Of a DNA stretch of 64,000 nt, positions 6,379 to 58,726 are shown one piece after another (the first letter of the stretch is position 1; each line of letters opens with the position of its first letter). Under the pieces are notes generated by a model. It saw nothing but the letters and a program-made list of their open reading frames with translations, made no database searches and was not told the origin of the DNA. Position numbers and translations under genes: made by a program. This DNA comes from an uncultured Opitutia bacterium (GTDB lineage Bacteria; Verrucomicrobiota; Verrucomicrobiia; Opitutales; UBA953): positions 124,001 to 188,000 of the forward strand of contig CAMFKE010000001.1 of NCBI GenBank assembly GCA_945957395.1, in the 5' to 3' direction.

Positions 6379-6396
6379 GGGAGGGAAAGACGAAGT

Positions 6397-6424
6397 GTGA
6401 AGGGTGAAGGGTGAAATGTGAACG
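6397..6424 (+). repeat. Heptamer array, leuD side
   Basis: Four consecutive 7-bp units GTGAAGG, GTGAAGG, GTGAAAT, GTGAACG lie in the leuD leader. Positions 6393-6414 form a perfect 22-bp inverted repeat with 6492-6513. Confidence 0.85.
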
Positions 6425-6474
6425 GGTGGCGTGGATGTGGGGGGAGCCGGAATCAGGCGCGGGCGACTGACTTC

Positions 6475-6509
6475 ATCTCTCAATTCACCCTTCACCCTTC
6501 ACCCTTCAC
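6475..6509 (-). repeat. Heptamer array, inverted copy
   Basis: On the minus strand, three GTGAAGG units are followed by GTGAATT and a degenerate GAGAGAT. The array contains the stop codon and last codons of the hypothetical gene at 6492-6851 and pairs with the array at 6397-6424. Confidence 0.85.
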
Positions 6510-6851
6510 ACTTTGGTGCGCCAGCACCATCGGTTCGGAGGCCGGTTCGATGGAGACGACGGCGGCCAGGCCGGTGGCGGCGAGCCACTGCGCGAGGCGT
6601 TCGCGACGCAGGGTTTCGGGCGTGGCGTTTTCGGAAAAGAGCACGGCGGTGTCGCCGCCGACGAGCAGGTCGGCCGTGGCGTGCGCGACGAGGAGGCCGT
6701 CGTGGTGCGAGGGCAGGCGGACCTTGTGGCGCACGCCGTAACCGCGCTGTTCGAGCGCCAGGCCCACGCCGCGCAGCAGCGGCGCGCCGAGCAGGCCGTC
6801 GGCGAAGAGCTCGACGGCTACGGACTCGATGTGTGTGACGCAGGGATTCAT
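6492..6851 (-). CDS. Hypothetical protein
   Basis: A 119-residue protein of no family I recognise. It has a plausible soluble composition with a segment rich in GLLGAPLLRGVGLALEQRG and no signal peptide or membrane helix. The last six codons (SVKGEG) and the stop fall inside a GTGAAGG heptamer array, so the natural C-terminus may have been replaced or extended by repeat expansion. It lies between gyrA and leuD on the same strand. Codon usage is like the neighbours. It may be a real gene or a fortuitous frame; its colinearity with the flanking genes favours real. Confidence 0.5.
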   Translation of the reverse strand: MNPCVTHIESVAVELFADGLLGAPLLRGVGLALEQRGYGVRHKVRLPSHHDGLLVAHATADLLVGGDTAVLFSENATPETLRRERLAQWLAATGLAAVVSIEPASEPMVLAHQSVKGEG

Positions 6852-7004: not shown

Positions 7005-9578
7005 TTACTCGGCGGCGGGAGCGGGGGCGTCCTCGGTGTCCTCGTCGGCCTTCACGACCTTGCAGACGCCGATGATGGTGTCGCCTTCGGGGATGTTCAT
7101 GACCTTGACGCCCTGGGCGACGCGGCCGGTCATGCGGACTTCCTTCACGCGGGTGCGGATGGACTGGCCGCCCTTGGTGAGGACCATGATCTCGTCGGTA
7201 TCGAGGACGGAGAGGGCGCCGGCGACGCCGGCCTTGGTCTTGATGGCGATGAGGCCCTTGCCGCCGCGGGACTGGATGCGGTACACGGGGCCCTCGTCGT
7301 CGTCGAACTTGGTGCGCTTGCCCTGGCCGTTGCCGCCGACGATGAGGAGGGTGCACTCGGGGTCCACGATCTCCATGGACTTCACGGAGTCCTTGGGGGC
7401 GAGCTTCATGCCGCGTACGCCGGCGGCGGCGCGACCGACGAGGCGGATGCCCTTGGGCGCGCGCTCGGCGTCGGCGTCGCCGTCGAGTTCGACCTCGGCG
7501 GTGGTCTCGCCGTCATCGGCGTCGGCGCCGGAATCGCCCTCGTGCTTGGCGTCGAAGACGGGGAAGCGGATGCTCATGCCCTGGGCGGTGATCATCATGA
7601 CCTCGCCCTTGTCCTCGGTGAGTTTGACGGCGATGAGCTGGTCGCCGTCCTTGATGTTGATGCCGATGAGGCCGGACTTGCGGCAGTTGGAGTAGTCGGC
7701 GAGGCAGGTCTTCTTGACCATGCCGTTCTTGGTGCCGAACACGAGGAACTTGTCCTCGGAGAACTCCTTGATGCAGACCATGGCGGCGAGCTTCTCGCCC
7801 TCCTGCATCTGGATGACATTGGCGATGTTGCGGCCCTTGGAGGCGCGGGCGCCCTCGGGGATCTCGTATACCTTTTCCACATACACGCGACCGTTGTTCA
7901 TGAAGAACATGATGGTGTCGTGGGTGGAGGCGGTGAAGAGGTGCTCGATGAAGTCGGCCTCGTGGGTCTCGGAGCCGATGGTGCCCTTGCCGCCGCGTTT
8001 CTGGGAGCGGTAGGCGGCGACGGGGGTGCGCTTGATGAAGCCCTCGTGGGAGATGGTGATGATGCAGCCCTCGTTGGCGATGACGTCCTCCATGCGCAGT
8101 TCGCCCTCGGCGGCCTGGATCTGGGTCTTGCGGGGCGTGATGTGCTTCTTCGCCGTGTCGCGAAGCTCGTCCTTCACGATGGCGAGGAGGCGGTGCTCGT
8201 TGGCGAGGATGGTCTTGTATTCCTCGATTTCGGCGAGAAGGGCGGCGTACTCGGCCTCGATCTTGTCGCGCTCCAGGCCGGTGAGCTGGTAGAGGCGCAG
8301 GTCGAGGATGGCGGCGGCCTGGCGGTCGGAGAGGCCGTACTTGGCGATGAGTTTTTCGCGGGCCTCGTCGCGGTTCTGCGAGGCGCGGATGATCTTCACG
8401 AAGTCGTCGAGGTTGCGCAGGGCGATGCGGAAGCCCTCGAGGATGTGGGCGCGGTCCTCGGCCTTGCGCAGGCGGAACTTGGTGCGGCGGGTGATGACGT
8501 CGCGGCGGTGCTCGATGTAGCACTCGAGCATCTCCTTGATGTTCATCTGCTTGGGCCGGCGCTTGTCGAGGGCGAGCAGGATGACGCCAAAGGAGCTCTC
8601 GAAGGCGGTGTGCTTGTAGAGCTTGTTGAGCACGACGCGGGGCGATTCGCCGCGCTTGAGCTCGAGGACGATGCGGGTGTTCTCGTCGGATTCGTCGCGC
8701 AGGTCGGAGACCTCGTCGATGACCTTCTCGCGGATGAGGTCGGCGATGGCGATGACGAGGTTGGCGCGGTTCACATTGTAGGGGATCTCGGTGAGGATGA
8801 GGGATTCCTTGCCGCCCTTGAGCTCCTCGGTGTGCGCGACGCCGCGGGTGCGCACGATGCCGCGGCCGGTGCGCAGGTACTGGTCGATGCCGTCGCGTCC
8901 GTTGATGATGCCGCCGGTGGGGAAGTCGGGGCCCTTGACGATGCCGCAGAGTTCGTCGACGGAGAGGGTGGGCGTGTCGATGAGGCGCACGGTGGCGTCC
9001 ACGAGTTCGCCGAGGTTGTGCGGGGGGATGTTGGTGGTCATGCCGACCGCGATGCCGGTGGAACCGTTCATCAGCAGGTGGGGCAGGGCGCACGGGAGCA
9101 CGGAGGGCTCGGTGGTGGACTCCTTGTAATTGGGGACGAAGTCGACGGTGTCCTCGTCGAGGCCGGCGAGGAGGTCTTCGGCGACCTCGTCGAGCTTGCA
9201 CTCGGTGTAGCGGTAGGCGGCGGCGGGGTCGCCGTCGACGGAGCCGAAGTTGCCCTGGGGCATGACGAGCGGGTAGCGCATGACCCAGCTCTGGGCGAGG
9301 CGAACGAGGGTGTCGTACACGGAGGAGTCGCCGTGCGGGTGGTAGTTCTTGAGCACTTCACCGACGACACCGGCGCACTTGTCGAAGGGGCGGTTGTGAA
9401 GGAGGCCTTCACGCAGCATGGCGTAGAGGACGCGGCGCTGGACGGGCTTGAGGCCGTCGCGGGCGTCGGGGAGGGCGCGGGAGACGATGACGGACATCGA
9501 GTAGTCGATGTACGCGGTGGACATGATGTCCGTGATGTTGGTCGTGGCGAGGCGTCCGGTGGTGATTTCCGAGGACAT
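7005..9578 (-). CDS. gyrA: DNA gyrase subunit A
   Basis: An 857-residue type IIA topoisomerase subunit that cleaves and rejoins DNA during negative supercoiling. It opens with AYIDYSMSVIVSRALPDARD, and the catalytic Tyr is Tyr124 in AYRYTECKL. The quinolone-determining loop HPHGDSSVYD keeps the Ser and Asp equivalent to E. coli Ser83 and Asp87. The GyrA-box equivalent reads QKRGGKG. The C-terminal pinwheel contains an acidic insert near ELDGDADAE, and the protein ends in an acidic tail. The ATG at 9578 is chosen because sequence upstream of it is heptamer repeat. It follows gyrB by 117 nt, so a gyrBA operon is likely. Confidence 0.97.
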   Translation of the reverse strand: MSSEITTGRLATTNITDIMSTAYIDYSMSVIVSRALPDARDGLKPVQRRVLYAMLREGLLHNRPFDKCAGVVGEVLKNYHPHGDSSVYDTLVRLAQSWVMRYPLVMPQGNFGSVDGDPAAAYRYTECKLDEVAEDLLAGLDEDTVDFVPNYKESTTEPSVLPCALPHLLMNGSTGIAVGMTTNIPPHNLGELVDATVRLIDTPTLSVDELCGIVKGPDFPTGGIINGRDGIDQYLRTGRGIVRTRGVAHTEELKGGKESLILTEIPYNVNRANLVIAIADLIREKVIDEVSDLRDESDENTRIVLELKRGESPRVVLNKLYKHTAFESSFGVILLALDKRRPKQMNIKEMLECYIEHRRDVITRRTKFRLRKAEDRAHILEGFRIALRNLDDFVKIIRASQNRDEAREKLIAKYGLSDRQAAAILDLRLYQLTGLERDKIEAEYAALLAEIEEYKTILANEHRLLAIVKDELRDTAKKHITPRKTQIQAAEGELRMEDVIANEGCIITISHEGFIKRTPVAAYRSQKRGGKGTIGSETHEADFIEHLFTASTHDTIMFFMNNGRVYVEKVYEIPEGARASKGRNIANVIQMQEGEKLAAMVCIKEFSEDKFLVFGTKNGMVKKTCLADYSNCRKSGLIGINIKDGDQLIAVKLTEDKGEVMMITAQGMSIRFPVFDAKHEGDSGADADDGETTAEVELDGDADAERAPKGIRLVGRAAAGVRGMKLAPKDSVKSMEIVDPECTLLIVGGNGQGKRTKFDDDEGPVYRIQSRGGKGLIAIKTKAGVAGALSVLDTDEIMVLTKGGQSIRTRVKEVRMTGRVAQGVKVMNIPEGDTIIGVCKVVKADEDTEDAPAPAAE

Positions 9579-9596
9579 GGAAGGGGGTGGGCCGAA

Positions 9597-9624
9597 GTTG
9601 ATAGTTGATAGGTGTTGGTTGATA
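9597..9624 (+). repeat. Heptamer array in gyrA leader
   Basis: Exact 7-bp phasing: GTTGATA, GTTGATA, GGTGTTG, GTTGATA, lying 19 nt before the gyrA start codon. Confidence 0.85.
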
Positions 9625-9659
9625 GGGGGCGGGAGTGTCGGGCGGGGGATGTATCCGTC

Positions 9660-9687
9660 TGACAACTCTCAACTGTCACCTATCAAC
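9660..9687 (-). repeat. Heptamer array after gyrB stop, inverted
   Basis: On the minus strand four 7-bp units GTTGATA, GGTGACA, GTTGAGA, GTTGTCA begin 8 nt after the gyrB stop. They face the array at 9597-9624. Confidence 0.85.
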
Positions 9688-9695
9688 CGATGCCG

Positions 9696-13056
<3,361 letters not shown>

Positions 13057-49973: not shown

Positions 49974-49983
49974 GGCGGTTTTA

Positions 49984-50451
49984 TCCGCCGAGGGCCGCCG
50001 ATGACCGCCGATAAGGGAGACCGCGCCATGAGCGACGAACATGATCCGCAGACCTACGCCATCATCGGCGCGGCGATCGAGGTGCATCGCGTCCTCGGCC
50101 ACGGTTTCCTGGAGGTGGTTTATCAGGATGCGTTGGCCGAGGAGCTGACGGCTCGCGGGATTCCTTTTGTCCGGGAGCAGCCGCTTCAAATCGCCTACAA
50201 GGGCAAGGTGCTGCCTTCCTCCTATCGGGCCGACTTCGTCGTTTACGGCGATATCATCGTGGAAACGAAGGCGCTTTCGACCTCCCTCGGCGGCCATGAG
50301 GACGCCCAAATCCTCAATTATCTTCGCGCCACCGGATACGGGCGCGGCCTGCTGTTGAACTTCGGCGGCCTGCGTCTTGAAAGCAAACGGCGCGTTTTCA
50401 CCCGGACTCATGCCTGACCCGTATCGGTGGCCATCGGCGGCCATCGGCGGA
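49984..50451 (+). mobile_element. Candidate mobile cassette: GxxExxY gene bounded by 30-bp inverted repeats
   Basis: The arms 49984-50013 and 50422-50451 are inverted and match at 27 of 30 positions. Each is built of about three 10-bp units CCGCCGATGG. They enclose one gene (50001-50417), whose first codons lie inside the left arm. No transposase is encoded, so any movement would need help in trans. No clear target-site duplication is visible. Mobility is inference. Confidence 0.55.
50001..50417 (+). CDS. GxxExxY-family protein
   Basis: A 138-residue protein (129 from the second ATG at 50028, which lies outside the arm). The signature GHGFLEVVY is the GxxExxY motif; [34 protein letters not shown] and [21 protein letters not shown] follow the family pattern and the PD-(D/E)xK-like fold noted for it, with the DxnExK-type segment DFVV...IVETKA. 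The biochemical role is unknown. It is bracketed by inverted repeats between ispD and hpnC. Confidence 0.88.
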
Positions 50452-50475
50452 CGAACCTTTTTTCTCTTTTCCCCT

Positions 50476-57269: not shown

Positions 57270-57692
57270 ATGCAGCAAAATACTCCGCTTGAAGAACTTG
57301 CGAGGCGCGTTGTCGAAGCCGCATTCCGCGTGCAAGGCGACCTGGGTCCGGGACTGCTGGAATCAGTATACGAGGCCGCTCTGGCCAAGGTGCTGAGCGA
57401 TTGCGGACTGAAGGTCGAGCGGGGTAAGGCCGTCCCGGTGGAGTATGCGGGAGAGCGCTTTGACGAGGGCCTTTTCATCGACCTGCTCGTTGAGGGCGTT
57501 CTGCCGGTCGAGCTCAAGGCGGTGGACCGCTTTCTTCCCGTGCACGACCGGCAGGTGCTCACCTCGCTGCGACTTTTGAACCTGCCGCTGGGCCTGCTGA
57601 TCAATTTCGATTCCGGACACCCGTCGAAGTGGGTTCGACGCATAGGCAACCCCCTCGCCGCTGAGCCGGTTTGGGGGGCGGAGGTGTCGTGA
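57270..57692 (+). CDS. GxxExxY-family protein, second copy
   Basis: A 140-residue member of the same family as the gene at 50001, with GPGLLESVY as the motif. VVEAAFRVQGDLGPGLLES, GLFIDLLVEGVLPVELKAV and VLTSLRLLNLPLGLLINFD follow the family layout. It lacks the CCGCCGATGG inverted repeats. Instead TGATTAAT flanks it at 57140 and 57713 and CTGAGCCGG recurs at 57152 and 57661, which may be chance. The ATG at 57270 is preferred to a TTG at 57258. It stands between the K+ channel and dapB. Confidence 0.87.
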   Translation: MQQNTPLEELARRVVEAAFRVQGDLGPGLLESVYEAALAKVLSDCGLKVERGKAVPVEYAGERFDEGLFIDLLVEGVLPVELKAVDRFLPVHDRQVLTSLRLLNLPLGLLINFDSGHPSKWVRRIGNPLAAEPVWGAEVS

Positions 57693-58499: not shown

Positions 58500-58726
58500 G
58501 AATTTTGTTTCCTTAAGCGGTTTATGCGGAAGCGGCCCGACTCCCGCCAATCCTCCACCGGATACCTTCCCGGTGGACCCTTCTTCTTTTGGCCTGAGCC
58601 AGATGTGGATTATGAAATGTGCGCGCAGGCATCCTTCAAGGGTCTTCTGCCGGTTTTCTTGTTAACGCAAAGTGCCGGATTGGCGCGGGTCTTTTGCCTC
58701 CGTCGGAAAACAGCCATGTCGGGGCG

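Follow-up and report, generated by a model that had tools for sequence, protein, structure and literature searches.

The window analyzed here, a stretch of 64,000 nucleotides, carries the genes gyrB and gyrA, and the junction between them holds two facing arrays of short tandem units (Table 1). In the gyrBA transcript, these read GTTGATA GGTGACA GTTGAGA GTTGTCA, followed by a 35-nt core and the complements of GTTGATA GGTGTTG GTTGATA GTTGATA. All eight units are in exact 7-nt phase and four of them are exactly GTTGATA; one unit, GGTGTTG, is a poor match to this motif. An earlier note on this DNA had claimed phased, inverted 7-bp units of the GTTGATA type around a 35-bp core, and this was confirmed from the letters. 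The array score, combining arm complementarity with 7-periodicity, was 1.55 for the junction, a value reached by none of 1000 dinucleotide shuffles (maximum 1.17). The stem that the note had placed in the transcript just before the gyrA start was borne out as a prediction: the junction RNA has a predicted folding energy of −33.5 kcal/mol, compared with −21.8 ± 3.0 kcal/mol for shuffled sequences (z = −3.95; 0/200 as good). The gyr junction is thus a facing heptamer array, i.e. a pair of 7-mer arrays on opposite strands with complementary arms, beyond what is expected by chance. The sequence GTTGATAGTTGATA has only two exact matches in the 2.79-Mb genome (14 contigs), one in the gyr junction and the other at C2:2441. 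Rfam gave no match above the gathering score at 9579-9695 and four matches elsewhere in the window. An nhaA-I RNA lies at window positions 58527-58580 on the minus strand (46.5 bits, gathering score 37).

Table 1. Features of the window discussed in the text (positions are those of the window).
Feature	Position	Strand	Remarks
Second window array, arm 1, GTGAAGG-type heptamers	6391..6425	+	Junction 6379-6491 scores 1.35
Second window array, partner arm, CCTTCAC-type heptamers	6477..6516	+	Extends beyond called gene boundary at 6491
gyrA	7005..9578	-	Downstream gene; ORF and TIGR01063
gyrB-gyrA junction, 117 nt	9579..9695	-	Predicted hairpin, z −3.95
Arm 2 (3′ arm in transcript)	9597..9624	+	Plus-strand units GTTGATA GTTGATA GGTGTTG GTTGATA
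Core/loop, 35 bp	9625..9659	.	No S23 similarity found
Arm 1 (5′ arm in gyrBA transcript)	9660..9687	-	GTTGATA GGTGACA GTTGAGA GTTGTCA
gyrB	9696..12359	-	Upstream gene; ORF and TIGR01059, 899.7 bits (cut-off 882.4)
Left arm of GxxExxY element, about 10-mer units CCGCCGATGA	49983..50016	+	
GxxExxY gene (TIGR04256 / PDDEXK_3) between arms	50028..50417	+	C1:174052-174393, 128.8 bits
Right arm of GxxExxY element, about 10-mer units CATCGGCGGC	50420..50453	+	

To place the array in its phylogenetic context, gyr junctions were compared among relatives. The best-listed gyrB matches were MAGs of Opitutae/Opitutales, with best-segment identities reaching 78%. Of 80 gyr loci taken, gyrA was found in 73 and the junction was scored in 71. 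Apart from G009 (see below), three members of the window's family (L132, L133, and L143) were excluded because no gyrB end lay within reach of gyrA. As nearer relatives, we defined 38 loci by rank of the gyrB match (L021 to L062 with gyrA found, L072, and L090). The distance from the gyrB stop to the gyrA ATG has a median of 36 nt in these loci (range 18-55), compared with 117 nt in the window genome, and no facing array was present in the 37 of the 38 junctions that were long enough to score (highest score 1.18). Scores of at least 1.35, a threshold that is uncalibrated at arm length 18, were found for 14 of the 71 junctions (next score 1.31). All 14 are marine Puniceicoccaceae-type loci (L063-L068, L073-L076, L078, and L080-L082), and their units are lineage-specific, e.g. 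GAATTAA heptamers or AC-TT octamers. In two lineages, a GxxExxY gene is situated between gyrB and gyrA: (i) in L080, gyrB extends to position 7490, the GxxExxY gene occupies 7538-7954, and gyrA starts at 8001; (ii) in G009, which belongs to the window's own family, the order is gyrB, arm GGAGGACGTGGAGAGCGTGGAG, GxxExxY, arm CTCCACGATCTCCACGTCCTCC, and gyrA. The gyr array is thus an addition specific to its lineage, at a site where elements have settled more than once. Since nearer relatives lack the array, units differ elsewhere, and GxxExxY genes reside at the site in L080 and G009, these sequence comparisons point to an inserted, replaceable element and not to a conserved gyr regulator.

The strong stem predicted just upstream of the gyrA start, together with the recurrence of arrays at this junction in the Puniceicoccaceae-type loci, would suit a cis-regulatory hairpin tuning gyrA translation or mRNA stability. 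Such a function is improbable in view of the array-free junctions of the nearer relatives, the lineage-specific units, and the occurrence of arrays of like build at 53 junctions of the genome, including convergent and divergent ones. The effect on the GyrB:GyrA ratio that the note had suggested is likewise unsupported as a specific role, given the short junctions without array in nearer relatives, the different units or the GxxExxY gene inside in other lineages, and the 53 like arrays that half of the genome contains.

The genome-wide survey covered 65 genome stretches (1.364 Mb including the window), in which 1098 genes were called by codon usage (86% coding). Facing arms of period 7 with a score of at least 1.35 were detected in 53 of 764 intergenic regions. 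For the control periods 5, 6, 8, 9, 10, and 11, the corresponding numbers were 2, 8, 18, 17, 13, and 15 regions, and when each of 767 intergenic regions was dinucleotide-shuffled once, two passed. The gyr junction ranked 17th among the scored regions. Facing heptamer arrays are therefore abundant in this genome, which runs counter to the refuting case named in the earlier note, an array unique to this junction. Not every high scorer is a heptamer array, a small number being long palindromes or built of 8- or 9-mers. The 7-nt period was also evident in the self-match of intergenic DNA, which was 0.296 at lag 7, 0.292 at lag 14, and more weakly 0.284 at lag 21 over a base of about 0.2765. Because lags 1-3 and, more weakly, lags 4-6, 8, 9, 11, 15, and 16 were also elevated, lags 7 and 14 were judged against their neighbors. 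Likewise, when the arms of the best hairpins (found in 246 of 767 regions) were shifted in register by ±7 or ±14, complementarity increased. Arrays occur between codirectional, convergent, and divergent genes. A preference for codirectional junctions was considered and dropped, as the difference was too small (49 of 65 arrays with a score of at least 1.3 compared with 503 of 767 intergenic regions).

Array units vary by locus and include AGTTTTC, AAAATGC, GTTTCAG, GAGATGC, GGAATGC, and GTTGATA; with respect to MITEs and insertion sequences, it is to be noted that the unit sequences differ between the array copies of this genome. This variation bears on the idea that the arrays are binding sites for a global regulator acting on DNA or RNA, as proposed for Geobacter and Beggiatoaceae. 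In Geobacter metallireducens, paired sites on opposite strands have been given an annotation as regulator sites (accessible text of PMC2700814), and TAACTGA repeats are proximal to start codons (accessible text of PMC4679880). Units that change from locus to locus within one genome fit poorly with one sequence-specific regulator, and we regard this explanation as highly improbable.

Several arrays deserve mention on their own. Contigs C2, C8, and C11 (L011, L020, and L148) start with seven perfect CCTTCCA/GTGGAAG heptamers, and the assembly was apparently broken at these identical arrays. Arrays of an AAAATGC family (C1:259865, C5:41384, C2:10343, C6:26267, and C2:103899) seem by eye to have a common core with a TTTTCGAAAA-like palindrome, and this family may represent a repeat that is dispersed in the genome and has kept its core. 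The intergenic regions at C1:302015 and C7:57795 have an identical 21-bp arm pair, AACCACGAAAATCACGAAACA, which resembles the arms of GxxExxY elements; no GxxExxY match was found at either position.

The genome contains ten genes of the S23 family (TIGR02436, "23S rRNA intervening-sequence protein"), which encode four-helix-bundle proteins; solved structures of relatives are 2gsc (XCC0516) and 2rld. All eight of these genes with both flanks in reach are enclosed by arms with at least 16 of 21 complementary positions. The other two (L229 and L231) are near contig ends and were left unscored, with array-like sequence on the readable side of each. In one of these elements, L226, GTTGATG GTTGATA GTTGTGA GTTGATA faces TATCAAC, which is the unit family of the gyr junction. 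Other elements have their own units, i.e. GCAAAAG/CTTTTGC in L233, TTTTCGG/CCGAAAA in L232, and GCGGATT/AATCCGC in L235.

For a broader comparison, we collected 77 S23 loci, consisting of 10 from the window genome, 29 from its family, 27 from the phylum, and 11 from plasmids (of 38 matches). Flanks were long enough in 67, and 55 were retained after removal of near-identical loci. The groups sampled were Verrucomicrobiota, Cyanobacteria, Azospirillum, and Gemmatirosa, and the chromosomal loci are best-listed matches and not a random draw. S23 matches were present in 228 of 288 sampled phylum genomes and in 56 of 79 family genomes. The best flank-to-flank arm pair was complementary at 17 or more of 21 positions in 43 of the 55 loci and at 16 or more in 50. 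In the control, the left flank of one S23 locus was paired with the right flank of another, and 3.9% and 15.1% of 543 such pairs, respectively, reached these values. The mean self-match of the arms was 0.553 at period 7, 0.517 at period 14, and 0.325 at period 8, and 0.25-0.28 at the remaining periods from 4 to 13. By itself, the cut-off of 16 is loose, since 43 of 210 other ORFs of 100-200 aa in the window genome also reach it (9 of 210 reach 17). When a self-match of at least 0.5 at period 7 or 14 was required in addition, 36 of 55 S23 loci passed compared with 2 of the 210 ORFs.

Broken down by group, arms of at least 16 were found for 8 of 8 loci of the window genome, 13 of 13 of the family, 19 of 23 of the phylum, and 10 of 11 on plasmids. 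The five loci that fall short include one from a plasmid, that of Nostoc HK-01 (L292), and some S23 arms consist of 6- or 8-mer units instead of heptamers. Plasmid hosts were Calothrix, Nostoc, Stanieria, Geminocystis, Pseudanabaena, Leptolyngbya, Azospirillum, and Gemmatirosa; on a plasmid of Nostoc edaphicum, for instance, AGGGAGT units face ACTCCCT. The likeness to cyanobacterial heptamer repeats that had been pointed out for the gyr junction is thus apt, because S23 genes of cyanobacterial plasmids sit between such arrays. S23 genes are tightly coupled to facing heptamer arms in several phyla. The candidate rule that S23 is always codirectional with its host operon fails for the plasmid loci of Calothrix and Nostoc, and an inversion between L248 and L260 also speaks against it.

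A second gene type was found between facing arms. Facing arms of 8-10-mers (18-20 of 21 positions) enclose five of the seven GxxExxY genes of the window genome, with a different unit in each case; the loci L196 and L197 have no visible facing arms. One of the seven is the arm-flanked gene of the window in Table 1. The window also has a second GxxExxY gene at 57297-57626, without visible arms. Among 35 GxxExxY loci taken (26 usable, 24 non-redundant), 14 had arms of at least 17, and the best period was 8, 9, or 10 in 13 of these 14. As the arms of GxxExxY genes are made of 8-10-mers, S23 fits the heptamers better, and GxxExxY was dismissed as the sole array-associated gene.

Comparisons of orthologous junctions in related species revealed presence and absence, internal deletion, exchange, and inversion of elements. 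These comparisons are between species, as the genus is represented by one genome, and neither a target-site duplication nor an empty/occupied pair within one species was observed in them. At a tRNA-adjacent junction of sister species, 30 loci were compared, of which two were without tRNA match and several were ended by contig ends. Among the rest, L323, L324, L327, and L339 have an S23 gene (open frames of 148-152 aa) behind a left arm of GGGGTA-type 6-mers; both arms were read in L323 and L327 only. In L342, S23 has an internal deletion and both arms are kept, the right one being short. The GGGGTA-type left arm is present and S23 absent in L326, which contains unread bases; L330 has a right-arm remnant or scar beside a different facing array; and no array is visible in L351 and L352. 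L307 and L311 are 98.2% identical over 716 bp (element plus adjacent tRNA region) and 81.4% in the next flank, a contrast that is supportive only, because the tRNA part is conserved anyway.

In a further pair, L248 and L260, the flanks and heptamer arms are in common, and the S23 interior is inverted (381 bp, 72% identical). L258 and L320 are S23 elements with different arms at one host junction, and their interiors have no DNA match of at least 80% over 300 bp. Separately, L248 contains at about 790-938 a long, near-perfect palindrome of about 148 bp with AAAAGGGGTCAGGCC ends, where L260 has 44 bp; the flanks are otherwise collinear, and the palindrome resembles a hairpin insertion of another kind.

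The arm period, the facing layout, the non-randomness, the abundance across the genome, and the fact that nearer relatives lack the gyr array are observed features, and we asked how the arrays without ORF relate to the S23 elements. For the gyr junction, the link to L226 consists of unit similarity and three shared 11-mers. In general, S23 flanks had 11-mers in common with ORF-less arrays about as often as with the remaining intergenic regions (for L226, sharing was found in 5 of 53 ORF-less arrays and in 55 of 714 other regions), and common descent of individual units is therefore unsupported. A search with ten S23 proteins against the 1.364 Mb (tblastn) detected no S23 remnant in the gyr core or in any ORF-less array scoring at least 1.3, and the idea that these arrays are decayed S23 genes was abandoned accordingly. 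The order of units may be mirrored between the arms. In a first permutation test, Z was 4.1 and 5.1; under a null model that repeats the selection, t was 2.2 and 2.7 with 52 of 81 loci positive. Since the effect shrank under this null, mirrored order is graded as suggestive only.

These observations have to be weighed against local slippage, according to which the heptamers arose in intergenic DNA by replication slippage, a step of 7 nt being favored by the polymerase, and the facing copies by hairpin-templated mutation, S23 tolerating or entering the arrays and not causing them. There are far more arrays without ORF (53 in half of the genome) than S23 genes (10 in all of it), the array cores yielded no S23 remnants, and the perfect CCTTCCA arrays with which three contigs begin resemble fresh expansions. 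Moreover, many bacteria have heptamers as their most frequent long repeat unit, and contact with the polymerase was suggested as the cause (Mrazek 2007, as summarised in the accessible text of PMC4679880). Slippage alone, however, predicts direct arrays and not opposite-strand pairs with matched units. It also sits uneasily with matched arms around 43 of 55 S23 genes compared with 9 of 210 ordinary ORFs at equal cut-off, and with arms that stay unchanged while the S23 interior is inverted or partly deleted. We consider this explanation rather unlikely.

Instead, the gyr junction probably holds a hairpin element without ORF, belonging to a dispersed class related to S23/IVS elements, and the data suggest that mirrored heptamer arrays are parts of a little-noticed family of DNA elements subject to gain and loss. 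The ends of such elements would be facing arrays of short tandem units, as a rule heptamers, and a fuller form would carry one gene between the arms, often S23, or GxxExxY/PDDEXK_3 between arms of 8-10-mers. Such an element, and not local slippage, may be the origin of the gyr array, whether the array was itself an element from the start or derives from one. Candidates for the activity that moves the elements are S23 itself and a function of the host. By analogy to the stem of the 23S IVS, the arm pair could keep the insertion tolerable by folding, either in RNA or into a cruciform in DNA; between the genes of an operon, facing arrays would fold the insertion out of the transcript. If units slip and one arm is copied from its partner, the arms may stay matched while the unit drifts.

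A wider reading is offered tentatively and, taken as a whole, may well prove wrong. Possibly, the heptamer arrays of Cyanobacteria, Xanthomonas, Geobacter, Beggiatoaceae, and others are all arms of one class of selfish hairpin elements, which would carry S23 genes with heptamer arms or GxxExxY nuclease-like genes with 8-10-mer arms. Under this joint proposal, the unit length would be set by the protein of the element and the arms would have no fixed sequence. Hairpin-primed (snap-back) synthesis with 7-nt slips would remake the terminal repeats at each locus. The IVSs of 23S rRNA would be the special case in which elements inserted into rRNA; the array between gyrB and gyrA would be an ORF-less copy. 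Independently of this wider reading, the link between S23 and facing arrays joins two subjects that are treated separately in the papers accessible to us, namely heptamer simple repeats, for which it is a puzzle why they are seven long, intergenic, and unevenly distributed, and S23 genes of unknown function. If S23 genes and facing heptamer arrays belong to a single class of elements, the question of what S23 is for can be tested jointly with that of how bacterial heptamer repeats originate. Repeat arrays that were interpreted as regulator sites would then have to be re-examined, and gyrBA, an essential operon, is seen tolerating an inserted hairpin between its genes.

Similar repeats are known from several systems. 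Cyanobacterial STRR repeats consist of one of three named heptamer units in direct tandem; the gyr array, with a degenerate GTTGATA-type unit in inverted pairs, falls outside this definition. The repeats in the P6b stem of the Nostoc trnL intron are heptamers as well. This stem consists of one of two repeat motifs, which were replaced repeatedly between lineages (accessible text of PMC4476775), and, unlike the intergenic arrays, it has a fixed site within a group I intron. TAACTGA arrays of Beggiatoaceae, Cyanobacteria, and Bacteroidetes are intergenic, with indels mostly in steps of seven and suspected horizontal spread; in contrast to facing arrays, they repeat one unit in direct orientation (in the main genome, 169 sets are direct and one is indirect; accessible text of PMC4679880). 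Closer in layout are the tandem 7/8-mers of Geobacter metallireducens, mostly opposite-strand pairs at variable distance, which differ from the gyr array in that they were interpreted as regulator binding sites, some with insertion sequences at a fixed distance (accessible text of PMC2700814). Facing heptamer arrays were likewise described for the Xanthomonas GGGAATC repeat, with 70 and 75 convergent pairs in two genomes; for the Nostoc GGGGA(C/T)T repeat, convergent pairs were few (accessible text of PMC4692102). In that study there is one unit type per genome, read as G-quadruplex, whereas here we find many units and linked S23 genes; the terms S23 and four helix are absent from its main text. 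Among the matches listed for the open-licence literature, as far as their text was accessible, none links S23 or GxxExxY to facing heptamer arrays as a class, and such a link may be printed elsewhere.

The nearest precedent in the literature accessible to us is the report on the 23S rRNA IVS of Coxiella burnetii, which notes heptamers before the S23 ORF (PMC4990558). According to the accessible text of this report, the IVS is a stem-loop insertion with complementary ends and the S23 ORF in its loop. Tandem GACAGAT heptamers lie just before the ORF and vary in number between strains, the IVS has a 28-bp stem and was cut by RNase III in vitro, the distribution is sporadic, and mobility has been suggested. 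The elements described here resemble the Coxiella IVS in their stem-forming complementary ends and tandem heptamers. They differ from it by their intergenic location in protein operons and by having a tandem array as the arm on either side; in addition, the gyr copy lacks an ORF. As the gyr array has stem-forming complementary terminal arms, is without S23 ORF, and is located outside 23S rRNA, it is IVS-like in this reading and is not classed as an IVS proper. Facing heptamer pairs as such were already known; judged from sequence, what appears to be new are IVS-like hairpin elements outside rRNA whose arms are tandem arrays.
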